Of a stretch of DNA of 64,000 nucleotides, positions 18,656 to 23,162 are shown one piece after another; position 1 is the stretch's first letter, and each line of letters begins with the position of its first letter. The notes under the pieces are model-generated. The model was not told the DNA's origin, did not search any database, and saw only the letters and a list, made by a program, of their open reading frames with translations. A program made the translations under genes and the position numbers. Location of the stretch: positions 3,472,001 to 3,536,000 of the forward strand of contig NZ_CP136600.1 of the NCBI RefSeq assembly GCF_032911225.1, read 5' to 3'. This stretch comes from Thalassotalea fonticola. GTDB lineage: Bacteria; Pseudomonadota; Gammaproteobacteria; Enterobacterales; Alteromonadaceae.

Positions 18656-19345
18656 ATGTTTTTATTTATGGTGGATCCCGCTTTGACAACTCCTCTGGTT
18701 AATTTACATGTTGCCAAATTTGAGCTTAGTGCTCCTGACATTCGTCGACTTCCCGCTGACAGCGGTATTGAGGTTGCGTTTGCCGGTCGTTCTAATGCGG
18801 GTAAATCTAGTGCTTTAAACACACTAACGAATCAGAAAGCTTTAGCCCGAACAAGTAAAACCCCAGGTCGTACCCAGTTGATTAATGTTTTTGATATTCG
18901 AGAAAACCGTCGATTAATTGATTTGCCAGGTTACGGGTTTGCTAAAGTTCCTTTAGAAATGAAGAAAAAATGGCAAAAAGCATTAGCTGAATATTTAGAA
19001 AAGCGGATGAGCTTAAAAGGTTTGGTCTTATTAATGGATATTCGTCATCCGCTAAAAGATTTAGATGTAGACTTAATCAACTGGGCCAATGATTGTCAGT
19101 TGCCAACTTTAGTTTTATTAACTAAGGCTGACAAATTAAAACCCGGTAAACGAAATTCTGAAGTACTACAAGTTCGCAAGAAATGTGTGACTATGCATGA
19201 CAATATCAAAGTCCAAGCATTCTCATCATTAACTAAAGTTGGATTAGAACAGGCTACTGCCGCCATTAGTGACTGGTTTATCAATATCGAACATCAAGAA
19301 TTGGTCGATATTGAAGATGAAGAAGAATTCGACGAAAACGAGTAA
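18656..19345 (+). CDS. engB: Ribosome biogenesis GTPase EngB (YihA/YsxC)
   Basis: This essential GTPase acts in late assembly of the 50S ribosomal subunit. The 229-residue protein has G1 GRSNAGKSS at residues 44-52, G2 TPGRTQ, G3 DLPGYG and G4 LTKADK. The start is uncertain: ATG codons at 18656 and 18668 are both in frame and neither has a clear Shine-Dalgarno; E. coli EngB begins close to the residue following the second. The acidic C-terminal tail ([12 protein letters not shown]) is longer than in E. coli. It is convergent with polA, with a 957-bp gap that holds the twin sRNA-like units. Confidence 0.96.
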
Positions 19346-19389: not shown

Positions 19390-19586
19390 GCCTCGGATAG
19401 TCTATATTGAAAAATGCACTAATACTCAATGTATGTTGTTAGGACAATGTAGGGAACATTTGCTGAAGAGTAATTTTTTGTTTTTACTTCAAGGATGAAA
19501 ATCACCAAGAAGGGTATTAAATTTGTAAAGTAGGGTGCAGCAATAGCAACTTAATTATGTATTGAAACTGCCCATATATTTCAGGC

Positions 19587-19676
19587 AAAAAAAAACCAAC
19601 GTCAAGGACGTTGGTTAGAAAGCTTATGGGGAAGCTAGAAAACAAAAGTTATTACAACAAGAATTCCGTTAGGAAT
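19587..19676 (-). ncRNA. Candidate small RNA, copy 1 (spf-locus position)
   Basis: On the minus strand a promoter (TTTACA 19711-19706, 17-base spacer, TAATAT 19688-19683) is followed by about 90 bases and a strong intrinsic terminator, AACCAACGTC-loop-GACGTTGGTT (19594-19616) with nine U. The predicted RNA has a 5' hairpin (ATTCC-TAAC-GGAAT), a U-rich Hfq-like stretch (TTTTGTTTT), and a hairpin AGCTT/AAGCT with a C-rich loop (CCCCAT) that could pair with ribosome-binding sites. No ORF is apparent. It lies downstream of polA on the same strand, the exact place and orientation of spf (Spot 42) in E. coli, but the sequence does not look like Spot 42. A second copy lies at 20064-20151. Confidence 0.7.
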
Positions 19677-19682
19677 GAGGCT

Positions 19683-19744
19683 ATATTAGAGTGTTCACTC
19701 TAGTTTGTAAAGTATTTATTCTAAGTTTTATTACATTTTTGTAA
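19683..19744 (-). promoter_or_regulatory. Promoter and operator-like palindromes of sRNA candidate copy 1
   Basis: TTTACA-N17-TAATAT spans 19711-19683. The spacer contains the palindrome TAGAGT-N4-ACTCTA (19687-19702), and TTACA-N4-TGTAA (19731-19744) lies about 20 bp upstream of the -35. Both palindromes recur in copy 2, so regulation by a dimeric factor is likely. Confidence 0.6.
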
Positions 19745-19839
19745 AAAATATGAAATAAATAGGCTTTTTTTCTTAAGTTTTATTTGTCGATTGAATGTTT
19801 ATGTAGTTTTATTACATAAATGCTCGGCTAGTAAAGTGT

Positions 19840-19975
19840 TTGGCAGCAGGTGCTATTCGTGGTCTTGAGGTTAAAGGTGTATTTTTTTATGCTGAAATTT
19901 TAATAAATCTGGCAGTTTTTTCGATTGTTTCCACAATGTCGCGTTACCAAGGTAAAAAATAAGCTTATTTTGTAT
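19840..19975 (-). pseudogene. Degenerate duplicate of the polA 3' end
   Basis: Between the two sRNA-like copies the minus strand matches the end of polA. From TTAAAGG to TTTCCACAAT the spacing is exactly 60 bases in both. The translation IVETIEKTARF corresponds to IVETTEKLVEI of PolA and NTPL to NVPL. The match extends upstream into the HDELIF region, where AAGCTTATTTTT faces GAGCTAATTTTT. In-frame stops and many substitutions show it is non-functional. It marks the unit that was duplicated: polA tail plus downstream sRNA. Confidence 0.7.
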
Positions 19976-20033
19976 TAATGACGAGCGCTGTTTTCTTATA
20001 GTTTTGAATTTTTAAAGAGTGTAGAGAAAATTA

Positions 20034-20049
20034 AATTTAGATCTGACCC
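20034..20049. repeat. GGGTCAGATCTAAATT motif (inverted copy) at the duplication junction
   Basis: The 16-mer, read on the minus strand, is identical to part of 27512-27528, where it precedes the Tag-family gene. It lies at the boundary between sRNA copy 2 and the polA remnant. It may be part of a dispersed short repeat. Confidence 0.5.
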
Positions 20050-20063
20050 TATTTATTTCAGGC

Positions 20064-20151
20064 AAAAAAAACCAACGTCAAGGACGTTGGTTAGAAGCTT
20101 ATGGGGAAGCTAGAAAACAAAAGTTATTACAACAAGAATTCCGTTAGGAAT
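20064..20151 (-). ncRNA. Candidate small RNA, copy 2 (spf-locus position)
   Basis: This copy is nearly identical to copy 1; over about 160 bp only a few bases differ, mainly one A in the T-tract, one base before AAGCTT, and two in the promoter spacer. Its promoter is TTTACA (20186-20181), 17-base spacer, TAATAT (20163-20158). Its terminator is AACCAACGTC-loop-GACGTTGGTT (20070-20092) followed by eight U. It lies about 150 bp downstream of the polA stop, behind the polA terminator, so it should be transcribed independently of polA. Conservation of promoter, C-rich loop and terminator in both copies, while the polA fragment between them has decayed, argues that both copies are functional. Confidence 0.72.
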
Positions 20152-20157
20152 GAGGCT

Positions 20158-20219
20158 ATATTAGAGTGTTAACTCTAGCTTGTAAAGTATTTATTCTAAG
20201 TTTTATTACATTTTTGTAA
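20158..20219 (-). promoter_or_regulatory. Promoter and operator-like palindromes of sRNA candidate copy 2
   Basis: TTTACA-N17-TAATAT (20186-20158) with TAGAGT-N4-ACTCTA (20162-20177) inside the spacer and TTACA-N4-TGTAA (20206-20219) upstream. The N4 of the spacer palindrome differs between copies while the arms are identical, which fits a protein-binding site. Confidence 0.6.
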
Positions 20220-20227
20220 AAAAAATG

Positions 20228-20257
20228 AAAAAAAACAGCATTTATACGCTGTTTTTT
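20228..20257 (-). terminator. Terminator of polA
   Basis: AACAGC (20234-20239), an 8-base loop and GCTGTT (20248-20253) form the stem; on the minus strand a run of eight U follows. It lies about 45 bp after the polA stop and upstream of the sRNA copy 2 promoter. Confidence 0.75.
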
Positions 20258-20302
20258 ATCTGCTTCTGTAACTTTTTGTAATTTTATTACATTTTTGTTT
20301 GT

Positions 20303-23059
20303 TTAATGCGCTTGCTGCCAGTTGTCGCCAGTACCGGCCTCTGAGATTAAAGGCACATTTAATTGCACCGCATTGTCCATAATTTCAACTAATTTTTCGG
20401 TTGTTTCCACAATTATGCTTTCTTCGACTTCAAAAATTAGCTCATCATGTACCTGCATGGTCATTTTTATGCGCGGATCATTATTTTCTATCAGCCATTT
20501 ATCAACTGCGATCATCGCCTTTTTAATAATGTCTGCGGCGGTACCTTGCATAGGCGCATTTATTGCTGCCCGTTCAGCGGCTTTGCGTCTTGCACCGTTT
20601 CTAGATTTAATCTCAGGTAGAAATAGTCTACGGCCAAATAAGGTTTCAACATAGCCTTGTTCAGTCGCTAGTTGTCGGGTATCTTCCATATACTCTAATA
20701 CGCCAGGGTAGCGTTCAAAGTAGGTGTTCATATAGTCTTGTGCTTTACCACGAGCAATGCCTAGCTGCTTGGATAAACCAAACGCAGACATACCGTAAAT
20801 CAAGCCAAAGTTTATTGCCTTAGCACTACGACGGTGATCTGCCGTCACTTGCTCCAATTCGATGTTAAATATTTCAGCGGCAGTTGCTTGGTGAACATCC
20901 CTACCTTCAGCAAATGCAGACAATAGACCCTTATCATTCGATAAGTGCGCCATAATACGCAATTCAATTTGAGAATAATCTATTGCGAGTATTTTATAAC
21001 CGGTTGGAGCTACAAACGCCTGGCGAATTTTTTTGCCTTCTTCACTACGGATAGGAATGTTTTGTAGATTAGGATCGGTTGAAGATAAACGCCCAGTTGC
21101 CGTTACTGCTTGATGATAAGAGGTATGCACTCGTCCAGATTTTTCACTCACCATTAATGGTAATTTATCTGTATAAGTAGATTTTAATTTACTTAAACCA
21201 CGATGCTCAATAATCAATTTAGGCAATGGGTAATCTAAAGCCAGCTCTTGTAAAACTTCTTCAGCTGTAGAGGGAGCACCTTTTGGGGTTTTCTTGATCA
21301 CCGGTATGCCTTGCTCTTCAAACAAAATTGTTTGTAATTGTTTTGGTGAGCTTAAGTTAAAGCTTTTACCGGCAACATTGTGCGCTTGGATTTCTAGTTC
21401 ATCTAAACGCATGCCCAGTTGATGACTTTGTTCGATTAATAAATCAGAATCAATTAGTACACCCGTTTGTTCCATGCGCGCAAGCACCGGCATAAGTGGC
21501 AATTCGATTTCGTTGAAAACTTGCTTTTGCTCGGCTTGTTTAGCTAATTTTGGCCAAATGGCTTGGTGTAAACGTAGAGTAATATCAGCATCTTCGGCGG
21601 CATAATGACCAGCTTGCTCGATATCTATTTGGTTAAAGGTAAGTTGCTTCTTGCCTTTGCCGGCAATATCTTCAAAGTGTACGGTTTTGTAGCCTAGGTA
21701 TTTCTCAGCCAAGGCGTCCATGTTATGGCGAGTAGACACGCTGTTTAAACAATAGGACTCAAGCATAGTATCAAAACCAATACCTTGAATTGTTATGCCA
21801 TAATGACTTAACACATTGGTATCATATTTTAAATTCTGCCCGATCTTCAAAATTTTGCTGCTTTCTAATAATGGCTTAAATTGTTCTAATACCCAATCGA
21901 GTTCTAATTGCTCTGGAGCATCGATATAATCATGAGTAAGTGGCACATAAGCTGCTTTTCCAGCTTCAATAGCAAATGACAAGCCTACTAATTTGGCTTC
22001 CATATAGTTGACACTAGTGGTTTCAGTATCAAAGGCAAATTCGTTACAAGCGTTTAATTTATCCAACCAGGTTTGTAAATCTGCTTTGCTTAAAATGATG
22101 TCGTATGAACTTTCAATGGCGTCAGGCAATTCATCTTCTTCGTCAACTTCTGTTTCTTGTGCTGCACTTTTTGCTGTTGGGTTATCACTTGTCGTATTGC
22201 CTTTATCAAGATCGGCGAGCAAACGTTTAAGTTCAAACTCGGTATACATTTCACGTAATGTATCGGTATCTGCAGGTATCGCTTCTATTTCATTAATCGG
22301 CTGTTCCAGTTCTACATCCAGCTTGATTGTAGCTAATTCATAAGAAAGCGGTAATTGTTCAAGGGCTGCTCGCAGGTTTTCACCGATTTTACCTTTAACA
22401 GAATCAGCATTGGCAATAACATTGTCTAAGTTTTCATGTGCGGTGAGCCATTTTACTGCGGTTTTAGGGCCGCATTTTTCAACACCAGGGATGTTATCCA
22501 CCTTATCGCCCATTAACGCCAAGTAATCGATTATTTGATCGGGGCGCACGCCAAACTTTTCAATTACACCATCAACATCCATTGCCACATTCGTCATGGT
22601 ATTAATTAAGGTAACATGCTCGGTAACCAACTGTGCCATATCTTTATCGCCGGTTGAAATTACAGTTTCTAAGCCAAGGTTGCTGGCTTGGTCTGCCAAG
22701 GTACCAATAACATCATCTGCCTCTACACCATCTATAACTAATAATGGTAAGCCCATTGCTTTAATGATTTTATGAAGCGGCGCAATCTGGCAGCGTAAGT
22801 CATCAGGCATTGGTGGACGGTTAGCTTTATATTCAGGATATAAATCATTGCGGAAGGTTTTGCCTTTGGCATCAAAAATAACAACGATTTTTCCCGTAGG
22901 ATAATCTTTTTGCAGACTTTTGATCATATTTAATACGCCAGTAATTGCACCGGTGGGATGACCATCTTTTGTCGAAAGCGCTTGTAAATAAGGCACATAA
23001 TAAGCACGAAATAAGTAAGACGAGCCGTCAACGAGAATATAAGGGGAAGATTGAGTCAT
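20303..23059 (-). CDS. polA: DNA polymerase I
   Basis: The enzyme fills gaps and removes RNA primers in replication and repair. The frame opens at 23092, but PolA proteins begin just before the motif LVDGSSYLFRAYY, so the ATG at 23059 (MTQSSPYIL, 918 residues) is chosen. The N-terminal third is the 5'-3' nuclease. The 3'-5' proofreading domain is intact: FDTETTSV (Exo I), NLKYD (Exo II) and YAAEDAD (Exo III). The polymerase motifs are DYSQIELRIMAHLS (A), RRSAKAINFGLIYG (B) and MQVHDELIFE (C). A low-complexity acidic linker separates the nuclease from the Klenow part. Two DnaA-box-like sites lie in the 250 bp upstream, and a decayed copy of its 3' end lies downstream. Confidence 0.97.
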   Translation of the reverse strand: MTQSSPYILVDGSSYLFRAYYVPYLQALSTKDGHPTGAITGVLNMIKSLQKDYPTGKIVVIFDAKGKTFRNDLYPEYKANRPPMPDDLRCQIAPLHKIIKAMGLPLLVIDGVEADDVIGTLADQASNLGLETVISTGDKDMAQLVTEHVTLINTMTNVAMDVDGVIEKFGVRPDQIIDYLALMGDKVDNIPGVEKCGPKTAVKWLTAHENLDNVIANADSVKGKIGENLRAALEQLPLSYELATIKLDVELEQPINEIEAIPADTDTLREMYTEFELKRLLADLDKGNTTSDNPTAKSAAQETEVDEEDELPDAIESSYDIILSKADLQTWLDKLNACNEFAFDTETTSVNYMEAKLVGLSFAIEAGKAAYVPLTHDYIDAPEQLELDWVLEQFKPLLESSKILKIGQNLKYDTNVLSHYGITIQGIGFDTMLESYCLNSVSTRHNMDALAEKYLGYKTVHFEDIAGKGKKQLTFNQIDIEQAGHYAAEDADITLRLHQAIWPKLAKQAEQKQVFNEIELPLMPVLARMEQTGVLIDSDLLIEQSHQLGMRLDELEIQAHNVAGKSFNLSSPKQLQTILFEEQGIPVIKKTPKGAPSTAEEVLQELALDYPLPKLIIEHRGLSKLKSTYTDKLPLMVSEKSGRVHTSYHQAVTATGRLSSTDPNLQNIPIRSEEGKKIRQAFVAPTGYKILAIDYSQIELRIMAHLSNDKGLLSAFAEGRDVHQATAAEIFNIELEQVTADHRRSAKAINFGLIYGMSAFGLSKQLGIARGKAQDYMNTYFERYPGVLEYMEDTRQLATEQGYVETLFGRRLFLPEIKSRNGARRKAAERAAINAPMQGTAADIIKKAMIAVDKWLIENNDPRIKMTMQVHDELIFEVEESIIVETTEKLVEIMDNAVQLNVPLISEAGTGDNWQQAH

Positions 23060-23162
23060 GATATTTTTTATTGTCTTTAAAATTACTGGCAATAGAATGC
23101 CATATATTTGCTGAGTTTGGTATTGGTACTAATCATAAAAAACTATGAATATATCGAGCATC

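Follow-up and report, generated by a model that had tools for sequence, protein, structure and literature searches.

A tandem pair of small RNA genes behind polA in Thalassotalea fonticola, probably of an undescribed family that stands in the place of Spot 42

Two sRNA units between polA and engB

The window analysed here is a stretch of 64,000 nucleotides from Thalassotalea fonticola, in which polA and the convergent gene engB/yihA flank an interval carrying two near-identical units in tandem (Table 1). As the original prediction had stated, both units lie on the polA strand, behind polA and before engB, which is the location and orientation of Spot 42. Sequence and repeat analysis also bore out most of the anatomy predicted for them: each has a promoter of the form TTTACA-N17-TAATAT, the palindrome TAGAGTNNNNACTCTA within the promoter spacer (previously described as TAGAGT-N4-ACTCTA), and a strong intrinsic terminator. 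What is conserved upstream of each unit is a HexR-like box and the promoter element TTAGAATAAATACTTTAC, and not the TTACA-N4-TGTAA motif named there before.

The 5′ ends of the two RNAs (20151 and 19676) are placed from promoter spacing and conservation. Promoter-like matches in the stretch do not exceed chance (5 found, 3.8 expected), and the case for the promoters therefore rests on conservation; terminators number 4, against 0.4 expected. The pattern TAGAGN6CTCTA has only two sites in the 4.9-Mb genome, both of them in the sRNA promoters, but the same pattern read backwards likewise gives two sites, so that its rarity alone proves nothing.

Table 1. Features of the polA-engB interval, in window coordinates.
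Feature	Coordinates	Strand	Remark
polA, DNA polymerase I (upstream anchor)	20303..23092	-	NCBIfam NF004397, 1199 bits
engB/yihA GTPase (downstream, convergent anchor)	18656..19345	+	TIGR03598, 242.5 bits
HexR-like box, copy 1, TGTAATAAAATTACA	20277..20291	-	starts 140 nt ahead of inferred RNA start
Terminator-like hairpin 3′ of polA, ahead of sRNA promoter	20230..20257	-	
Conserved upstream promoter element TTAGAATAAATACTTTAC, copy 1	20182..20199	-	overlaps -35
Promoter TTTACA-N17-TAATAT, copy 1	20158..20186	-	supported by conservation
Palindrome TAGAGTTAACACTCTA in promoter spacer, copy 1	20162..20177	-	putative operator
sRNA copy 1, 89 nt	20063..20151	-	5′ end inferred
Unpaired conserved core UGUUGUAAUAA, copy 1	20124..20134	-	putative seed
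Hairpin 2, AGCUU-CCCCAU-AAGCU, C-rich loop, copy 1	20096..20111	-	single fold
Intrinsic terminator stem, copy 1	20070..20092	-	
Decayed duplicate of polA 3′ end	19828..19974	-	89/147 aligned bases identical
HexR-like box, copy 2, TGTAATAAAACTACA	19802..19816	-	14/15 identical to copy 1
Upstream promoter element, copy 2	19707..19724	-	
Promoter TTTACA-N17-TAATAT, copy 2	19683..19711	-	
Palindrome TAGAGTGAACACTCTA, copy 2	19687..19702	-	putative operator
sRNA copy 2, 90 nt	19587..19676	-	5′ end inferred
Intrinsic terminator stem, copy 2	19594..19616	-	

Tandem duplication and uneven decay

Repeat families of 149, 33, 24 and 20 nt recur at a spacing of 475-477 and trace a 475-bp tandem duplication that took the 3′ end of polA along with it. 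The polA copy has since decayed to 61% identity (89 of 147 bases), and the region between box and promoter stands at 35 of 52; the RNA, by comparison, is identical at 89 of 89 positions, the promoter block at 68 of 70 and the box at 14 of 15. The upstream parts of the two units align with a score of 85, where 300 shuffles reached at most 46, and in a second test with 116, where 200 shuffles reached at most 56. This upstream extension of the repeat, the decayed polA end, is absent from the original prediction. Such uneven decay must reflect either purifying selection or gene conversion confined to the sRNA gene, and either way it points to function.

By BLASTN, the close relatives G004 and G006 carry one copy each. 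Two other genomes of the window's genus hold two copies, spaced at 472 in G011 and 611 in G014, and each copy is preceded by a box scoring 11-12 of 12; this suggests that tandem pairs in the genus either are of greater age or have formed more than once. Similarity between the region separating the copies and that preceding copy 1 is clear in the window's own genome (G000), exceeds shuffles in G011 (61, against 39), equals the shuffle maximum in G014, and does not rise above shuffles in G001, G008, G012 and G013. Tandem duplication in the window's genus could have served a higher dose of the RNA or a division of its control. At one three-copy locus (L016, genome G012), copies 2 and 3 have lost the palindrome (6 and 5 of 10 positions) and retain a HexR-like box at -58 (11 and 10 of 12); control may possibly be split between the copies there.

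Predicted fold and covariation

The original prediction described some 88-90 bases with a 5′ hairpin, a U-rich tract and a CCCCAT loop, and folding recovers this order in both copies: hairpin 1 (AUUCC-UAAC-GGAAU), a single-stranded U-rich stretch with the core UGUUGUAAUAA, hairpin 2 and the terminator. Each copy folds at -19.4 kcal/mol (z -4.84 and -4.52), and none of 200 shuffles folded as well. The core, unpaired in the predicted fold, corresponds to mostly invariant columns in an alignment of 38 sequences.

The structure is further supported by compensatory change. In an alignment of 60 distinct sequences, which is fitted to the covariance model, 97.6% of the cells pair, 10 of 13 pairs have changed on both sides, and 130 cells show such two-sided change where shuffles give 32.4. 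None of 500 shuffles matched any of five measures, and a slid alignment gave at most 20 two-sided cells. An unfitted MAFFT alignment of the 38 sequences, analysed with RNAalifold, likewise shows 10 of 13 pairs changed on both sides. Hairpin 2 rests on single folds: its register in the window's genus is not that of other genera, and for this reason the RNAalifold consensus does not include it.

The near-identity of the tandem repeat would also be expected of a repeat that is not transcribed, or of a short coding gene. However, BLASTN detected no further copy in the genome at E 0.001, which also weighs against the dispersed element considered in the original prediction; promoters, terminators and compensatory changes have been kept over many genera; and the RNA copies of relatives differ by one-base insertions and deletions. 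A non-transcribed repeat or coding gene is hence hardly credible. The units instead combine features expected of a trans-acting Hfq sRNA, namely a promoter of their own, as judged by conservation, an accessible conserved core, and a terminator with a U tail.

Distribution in related genomes

A BLASTN search of relatives, as the original prediction had proposed, found the RNA in 30 of 117 genomes, its own included. A covariance model of the window RNA, R1, was built from 38 sequences and run over larger samples with strict filters, at which weak matches are lost. Within the host's GTDB family, R1 detected the RNA in 75 of 245 genomes sampled, spread over 17 of 49 genera; in the order and class samples it did so in 8 of 247 and 2 of 370 genomes, all of which belong to the same family. 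A pattern scan of named genomes returned 20 loci, from Thalassotalea, Thalassomonas, Colwellia and metagenome-assembled genomes of related or broader name.

Copy number, counted with some draft genomes included, is one in 7 of the 12 genomes of the window's genus, two in 4 and three in 1; among the 63 positive genomes of other genera it is exactly two in 54 and one in 9. The two copies of a genome lie from 0.6 kb (G237) to more than 300 kb (G137, G183) apart, several of them at 10-90 kb. Relatives with gaps of 10 kb to more than 300 kb, which include G044, G027, G035, G026, G137 and G183, make the tandem site seem a place of insertion or rearrangement.

The Rfam search that had been proposed, run on the window, found no family at its threshold. 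The restriction to one family in these samples and the absence of an Rfam match at threshold, together with conservation against decayed flanks and compensatory change, support the earlier suggestion that the Spot 42 locus here carries a pair of regulatory RNAs not described before. Among the best-ranked open-licence articles in PMC, no paper was recognised on this RNA or on HexR control of Spot 42.

Two copy types and their promoters

Scoring covered 37 distinct copies from other genera, 23 of them behind polA and 8 convergent with engB; the 6 that lie near neither gene within their stretch were left out of the counts, and the copies in L023, L065, L066 and L073 escaped the scoring motif. The two positions differ in sequence: polA-linked copies read CUUGUUG...CCUCAU, engB-linked copies CCUGUUG...CCCCAU. 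One exception (L026) has engB-type sequence and sits between polA and engB. An element TTAGAGTAANNACTTTAC lies at about -49 in all 13 engB-type copies at 14-16 of 16 positions, a set that was picked by sequence and takes in L026 and four unanchored copies. With a consensus derived from the scored sequences themselves, this upstream element reaches at least 13 of 16 in 5 of 23 polA-type promoters, in none of 23 Spot 42 promoters and in 22 of 24 copies of the window's genus.

Of the polA-linked copies, 9 of 23 have a perfect palindrome, as do 6 of 8 engB-linked copies and 18 of the 19 copies that lie behind polA in the window's genus; at 9 of 10 positions or more the palindrome is found in all 8 engB-linked copies. 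The window's genus mixes the types, an engB-type element and CCCC loop being joined to a polA-type core, which makes the lineage of the window's own copies ambiguous. As a marker of a wider regulon, TAGAGN6CTCTA was rejected: each of 16 genomes holds 1-6 sites, 47 in total against 39 for the backwards control. By coordinates, the sites include an sRNA promoter in 15 of the 16 (G055 being the exception).

HexR-like boxes

HexR, whose ligand is KDPG, is reportedly the subject of a 2011 study by Leyn et al., and the pattern TGTARTNNNAYTACA is what we take to be its consensus. PMC5489143, which has KDPG in its title and names HexR often, fits that ligand. The genome encodes HexR (NF008451, 513 bits) and contains five exact boxes, at gnd/gapA, at zwf/hexR-pykA, near rfaH, and one before each sRNA. 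Since the backwards control gives three sites against these five, the argument lies in the company of genes and not in the count; the presence of boxes at gnd/gapA and zwf/hexR-pykA supports this consensus. Excerpted text of PMC5343134 describes HexR as a central regulator of carbohydrate metabolism, with zwf and pykA among its genes. The box near rfaH (L104, G000:C1:1770470; rfaH as TIGR01955) also adjoins a gene that reads like a nucleotidyltransferase.

At about -58, a box of at least 10 of 12 positions stands ahead of 22 of the 23 polA-linked copies outside the genus (15 with at least 11), compared with 1 of 8 engB-linked copies (none with at least 11); several loci in these counts share one genus and are not independent. 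AT-rich shuffles score 10 of 12 in 1.1% of cases and 11 of 12 in 0.1%. In the window's genus the arrangement differs: the -58 site is degenerate, and a good box lies at -131 to -152, distant from the promoter. Behind polA, 17 of 19 copies of the genus have a box of at least 11 of 12. Over the 24 genus copies scored, a perfect box lies within 260 nt in 12, one of 11 of 12 in 6, and a poorer one in 6; a good distal box is missing from the three copies of L016, which lie near neither gene, and from two in L015 that count as engB-linked, and L014 stands outside the count.

The position of the window's own boxes raises the question as to whether HexR plays any part here. The box lies 126-140 nt before the RNA start, behind a terminator-like hairpin, and in engB-linked copies it is wanting (only 1 of 8 reaches 10 of 12), though all 8 have the palindrome; the boxes could thus be relics of lost promoters, or act elsewhere, with the RNA family governed by the palindrome's regulator alone. 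However, in other genera the box is immediately next to the promoter, those 22 of 23 polA-linked copies having it at about -58; the box of copy 2 in the window has been kept at 14 of 15 amid decayed flanks; and the second copies in G011 and G014 likewise retain 11 of 12. A family in which HexR has no role is accordingly judged unlikely, though it keeps appreciable weight, and HexR control of the polA-linked RNA is the reading carried forward.

Spot 42 and a second RNA in sister genera

The original prediction held that the units do not look like Spot 42. This proved correct: RF00021 has no gathering match in the window, none up to E 10 in 19400-20400, and none in G000, while sister genera have a true Spot 42 in this interval. 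RF00021 matches 46 of the 245 family genomes, in 15 genera, one match lying above the curated cut-off. A single R1-positive genome (G164) is among them, with E 9.5e-4 at a site that has neither polA nor engB (L270), and this match is regarded as chance. In the sister genera, the block GUAGGGUACAGA[GC]GUAAGAUGUUC, or a close variant, follows polA, and engB lies beyond it wherever the locus extends that far. E. coli served solely to identify this RNA: the copy in L096 shares its first 33 bases with E. coli Spot 42, and among the matches listed one of three records annotates it so. The two RNAs are therefore complementary in occurrence, Spot 42 not having been found in the sampled Colwelliaceae-type genera, where a copy of the RNA described here takes its place.

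The HexR-like box is common to both. At about -58 it is found in 22 of 23 Spot 42 loci (L094-L101, L257-L272) at 10 of 12 or more, and in 17 of 23 at 11 or more; these loci span 14 genera, and five of them come from one genus. On this pattern, Spot 42 may itself be a HexR target in sister genera.

Between Spot 42 and engB, a second RNA was recognised by motif in 4 of 14 sister genera (g18, g37, g43, g46), at 11 of 23 loci. It consists of a hairpin, CCCUGUUGAU, an AUAGC-UCUCCCC-GCUAU hairpin and a terminator; three hairpins were predicted in all four sequences folded, with a small extra one in L095 and L097 (z -2.30 for L095). R1, which was built without these RNAs, matches 7 of the first 8 loci (E 0.0007-0.012, five of them from one genus) and 2 of 17 further loci (E 0.0012 and 0.005), at 22.8-29.4 bits; L264 and L271 have the motif and no R1 match. 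However, R1 also matches the short Spot 42 at 6 of the 17 sister loci (15.8-24.4 bits, E 0.012-0.65), two of these alignments resting on short matches and the terminator. Because the short Spot 42 of L265, at 24.4 bits, outscores the second RNA of L097, at 22.8, R1 scores alone leave homology unsettled.

In the alignments, the second RNA shares UGUUG, UAGCUU and CCC blocks with the window RNA, and TTTAGAG[TC]AANNACTT lies upstream in 10 of 11 second-RNA loci, the longer element reaching 13 of 16 in 4 of 11. From the shared blocks, position, fold and upstream element, the second RNA is likely to be homologous to the window RNA. On our reading, the engB-linked RNA was resident first, and the polA-linked RNA is a copy of it in the place of Spot 42. 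The core GUUGUAAUAA, common to nearly all Colwelliaceae-type copies, is absent from the sister RNA, which fits a duplication after the split.

In nine sister genera without the second RNA, a similar block was seen by eye between the short Spot 42 and engB (L257-L263, L265, L266, L269, L272): TGAACTT..., then TTTATGTGTGTYYCT..., then a terminator. This block could represent yet another sRNA that has not been described.

A strongly diverged Spot 42 ortholog, with no replacement by another RNA, would explain why place, strand and box position are as for Spot 42 in sister genera, and it would account for the weak R1 matches to short Spot 42 at 6 of 17 fetched loci. Yet RF00021 has no match in the window and, G164 apart, none at a polA site in R1-positive genomes. 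Furthermore, neither the window interval nor any of loci L001-L031 contains the block GGGTACAGAGG; among R1-positive loci it turns up once, in L081, where it precedes polA and is followed by unrelated sequence. In addition, Spot 42 coexists with a possible relative of the window RNA in four sister genera. Simple divergence is therefore improbable.

Replacement of Spot 42 by another RNA can be reconstructed only tentatively, and the following scheme is given somewhat less than an even chance. The ancestor would have had the order polA, Spot 42, an RNA X and engB, with HexR sensing sugar catabolism through a box at about -58 of Spot 42; Spot 42 was then lost, a copy of RNA X took over its place and its box, the engB copy remained free of HexR, and the window's genus re-amplified the gene together with the box. 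The tie of the window RNA to RNA X is weakened by the weak matches of R1 to short Spot 42.

Candidate targets

The complement of the core, TTATTACAACARG, with at most one mismatch, matches 504 sites across 10 genomes, those in the RNA genes counted, against 310 for the backwards control; most of 20 regions inspected are TTA-TTA-CAA-CAA-like codons within genes. A pattern restricted to leaders gives 163 sites over 12 genomes where the control gives 81, though in the window's own genome there is no excess (19 against 22). Leader matches precede genes named from their translations as citrate synthase, methylcitrate synthase, malic enzyme and a FucP-like sugar transporter, among others.

Three candidates failed on conservation of the pairing, and no target is named. 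For gltA, at least 8 contiguous pairs occur in 4 of 20 R1-positive genomes, within the core in G013 only. For prpC, at least 10 pairs occur in 3 of 20, within the core in G010 and G014 and at an uncertain start in G044. For the FucP-like transporter, at least 9 pairs occur in 2 of 20 R1-positive and 0 of 8 R1-negative rows, 2 of the 30 rows being unread.

Proposed function and meaning

The units are real members of an sRNA family that has not been described before; the kind of element is familiar, its evolutionary history unusual. That this family acts in trans and has taken the place of Spot 42, perhaps with HexR control, is probable. Both units would be genes of one RNA, native to the polA-engB interval of Colwelliaceae-type genera, probably Hfq-dependent, and transcribed from its own sigma70 promoter under a regulator that binds the palindrome. 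The RNA would most likely pair with mRNA leaders through the core, the C-rich loop or both, and thereby block ribosome binding.

Spot 42 is under CRP control in E. coli, CRP being its known regulator in enterics, and its targets are sugar genes of the galK type, with which it base-pairs. Through the HexR box, the RNA described here could come under the sugar-phosphate-sensing control of HexR, follow sugar catabolism, and so take the part of Spot 42 in carbon control, standing in for it in those Colwelliaceae-type genera from which it has gone. The sign of this control is a guess that could fall either way: by analogy with Spot 42, relief of HexR repression would make the RNA abundant during sugar catabolism.

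The polA-engB interval of this marine lineage thus offers an undescribed sRNA family that complements Spot 42 in occurrence and has the same HexR-like box, so that it can be tested directly whether one regulatory RNA was exchanged for another while the switch stayed the same. Outside the enterics, Spot 42 itself is also predicted to be under HexR control.

Comparison with known sRNAs

Below threshold, Rfam names such as ErsA, DsrA, P26, NmsRb, OmrA-B, Hrs13 and others were returned, and these mostly vary from locus to locus. The Pseudomonas ErsA family (Pseudomon-1, RF01719) merits consideration, since excerpted text of PMC8575079 places ErsA between polA and engB and gives it the order of the window RNA: a stem-loop (SL1), a U-rich single-stranded domain, a second stem-loop (SL2) and a third (SL3). 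In the window, RF01719 scores 21.7 and 18.1 bits (E 0.11 and 0.85). However, its gathering score is 50, and searches to E 10 did not bring it up in 20 related loci, where sensitivity was reduced by size, or in two sister-genus stretches. Membership in the ErsA family is accordingly very doubtful, and an undescribed family remains the preferred reading.

The related locus nearest to any Rfam cut-off matches P26 of Pseudomonas (RF00630): L028, at 30.9 bits against 36 (E 0.019). P26 also appears below threshold in L021 (25.6 bits), that is, in 2 of 20 related loci, and has no match in the window; the two matches (L028 1509-1568, L021 1467-1526) lie on engB-linked copies. A reading as a CsrA sponge was rejected, as the Pseudoalteromonas Pf RNAs are GGA-rich in the part of PMC11882849 drawn on here and the window RNA is not.

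Three further systems offer partial likenesses. The Xanthomonas RNA sX13 lies 175 bp behind polA and has C-rich apical loops, but it is described as 115 nt long, with three stems and three C-rich loops, Hfq-independent and confined to Xanthomonadaceae (PMC3771888, in part); the window RNA has a C-rich loop in its second hairpin only. VSsrna24 of Vibrionaceae is a second sRNA between polA and engB, behind Spot 42, which is the place of the sister-genus RNA, but it is about 60 nt long and is set beside that RNA by description (PMC3295665, in part). The Neisseria siblings NgncR_162/163 (NmsR) are a highly similar pair concerned with carbon and amino acid metabolism, whose targets are reached via the second loop and the stretch preceding it (PMC9973317, in part); their sequence is different, the sister-genus RNA scoring 19.5 bits on RF02877 against a gathering score of 52. 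By analogy with sX13, ErsA and the Neisseria siblings, pairing with leaders through the exposed core or the C-rich loop is likely for the window RNA.

The closest comparison is with Spot 42 of the sister genera. In sequence and hairpins it is unlike the window RNA, and RF00021 finds the one and not the other; yet the two share the same interval and strand, and Spot 42 has its HexR-like box at about -58, as the polA-linked copies of other Colwelliaceae-type genera do.
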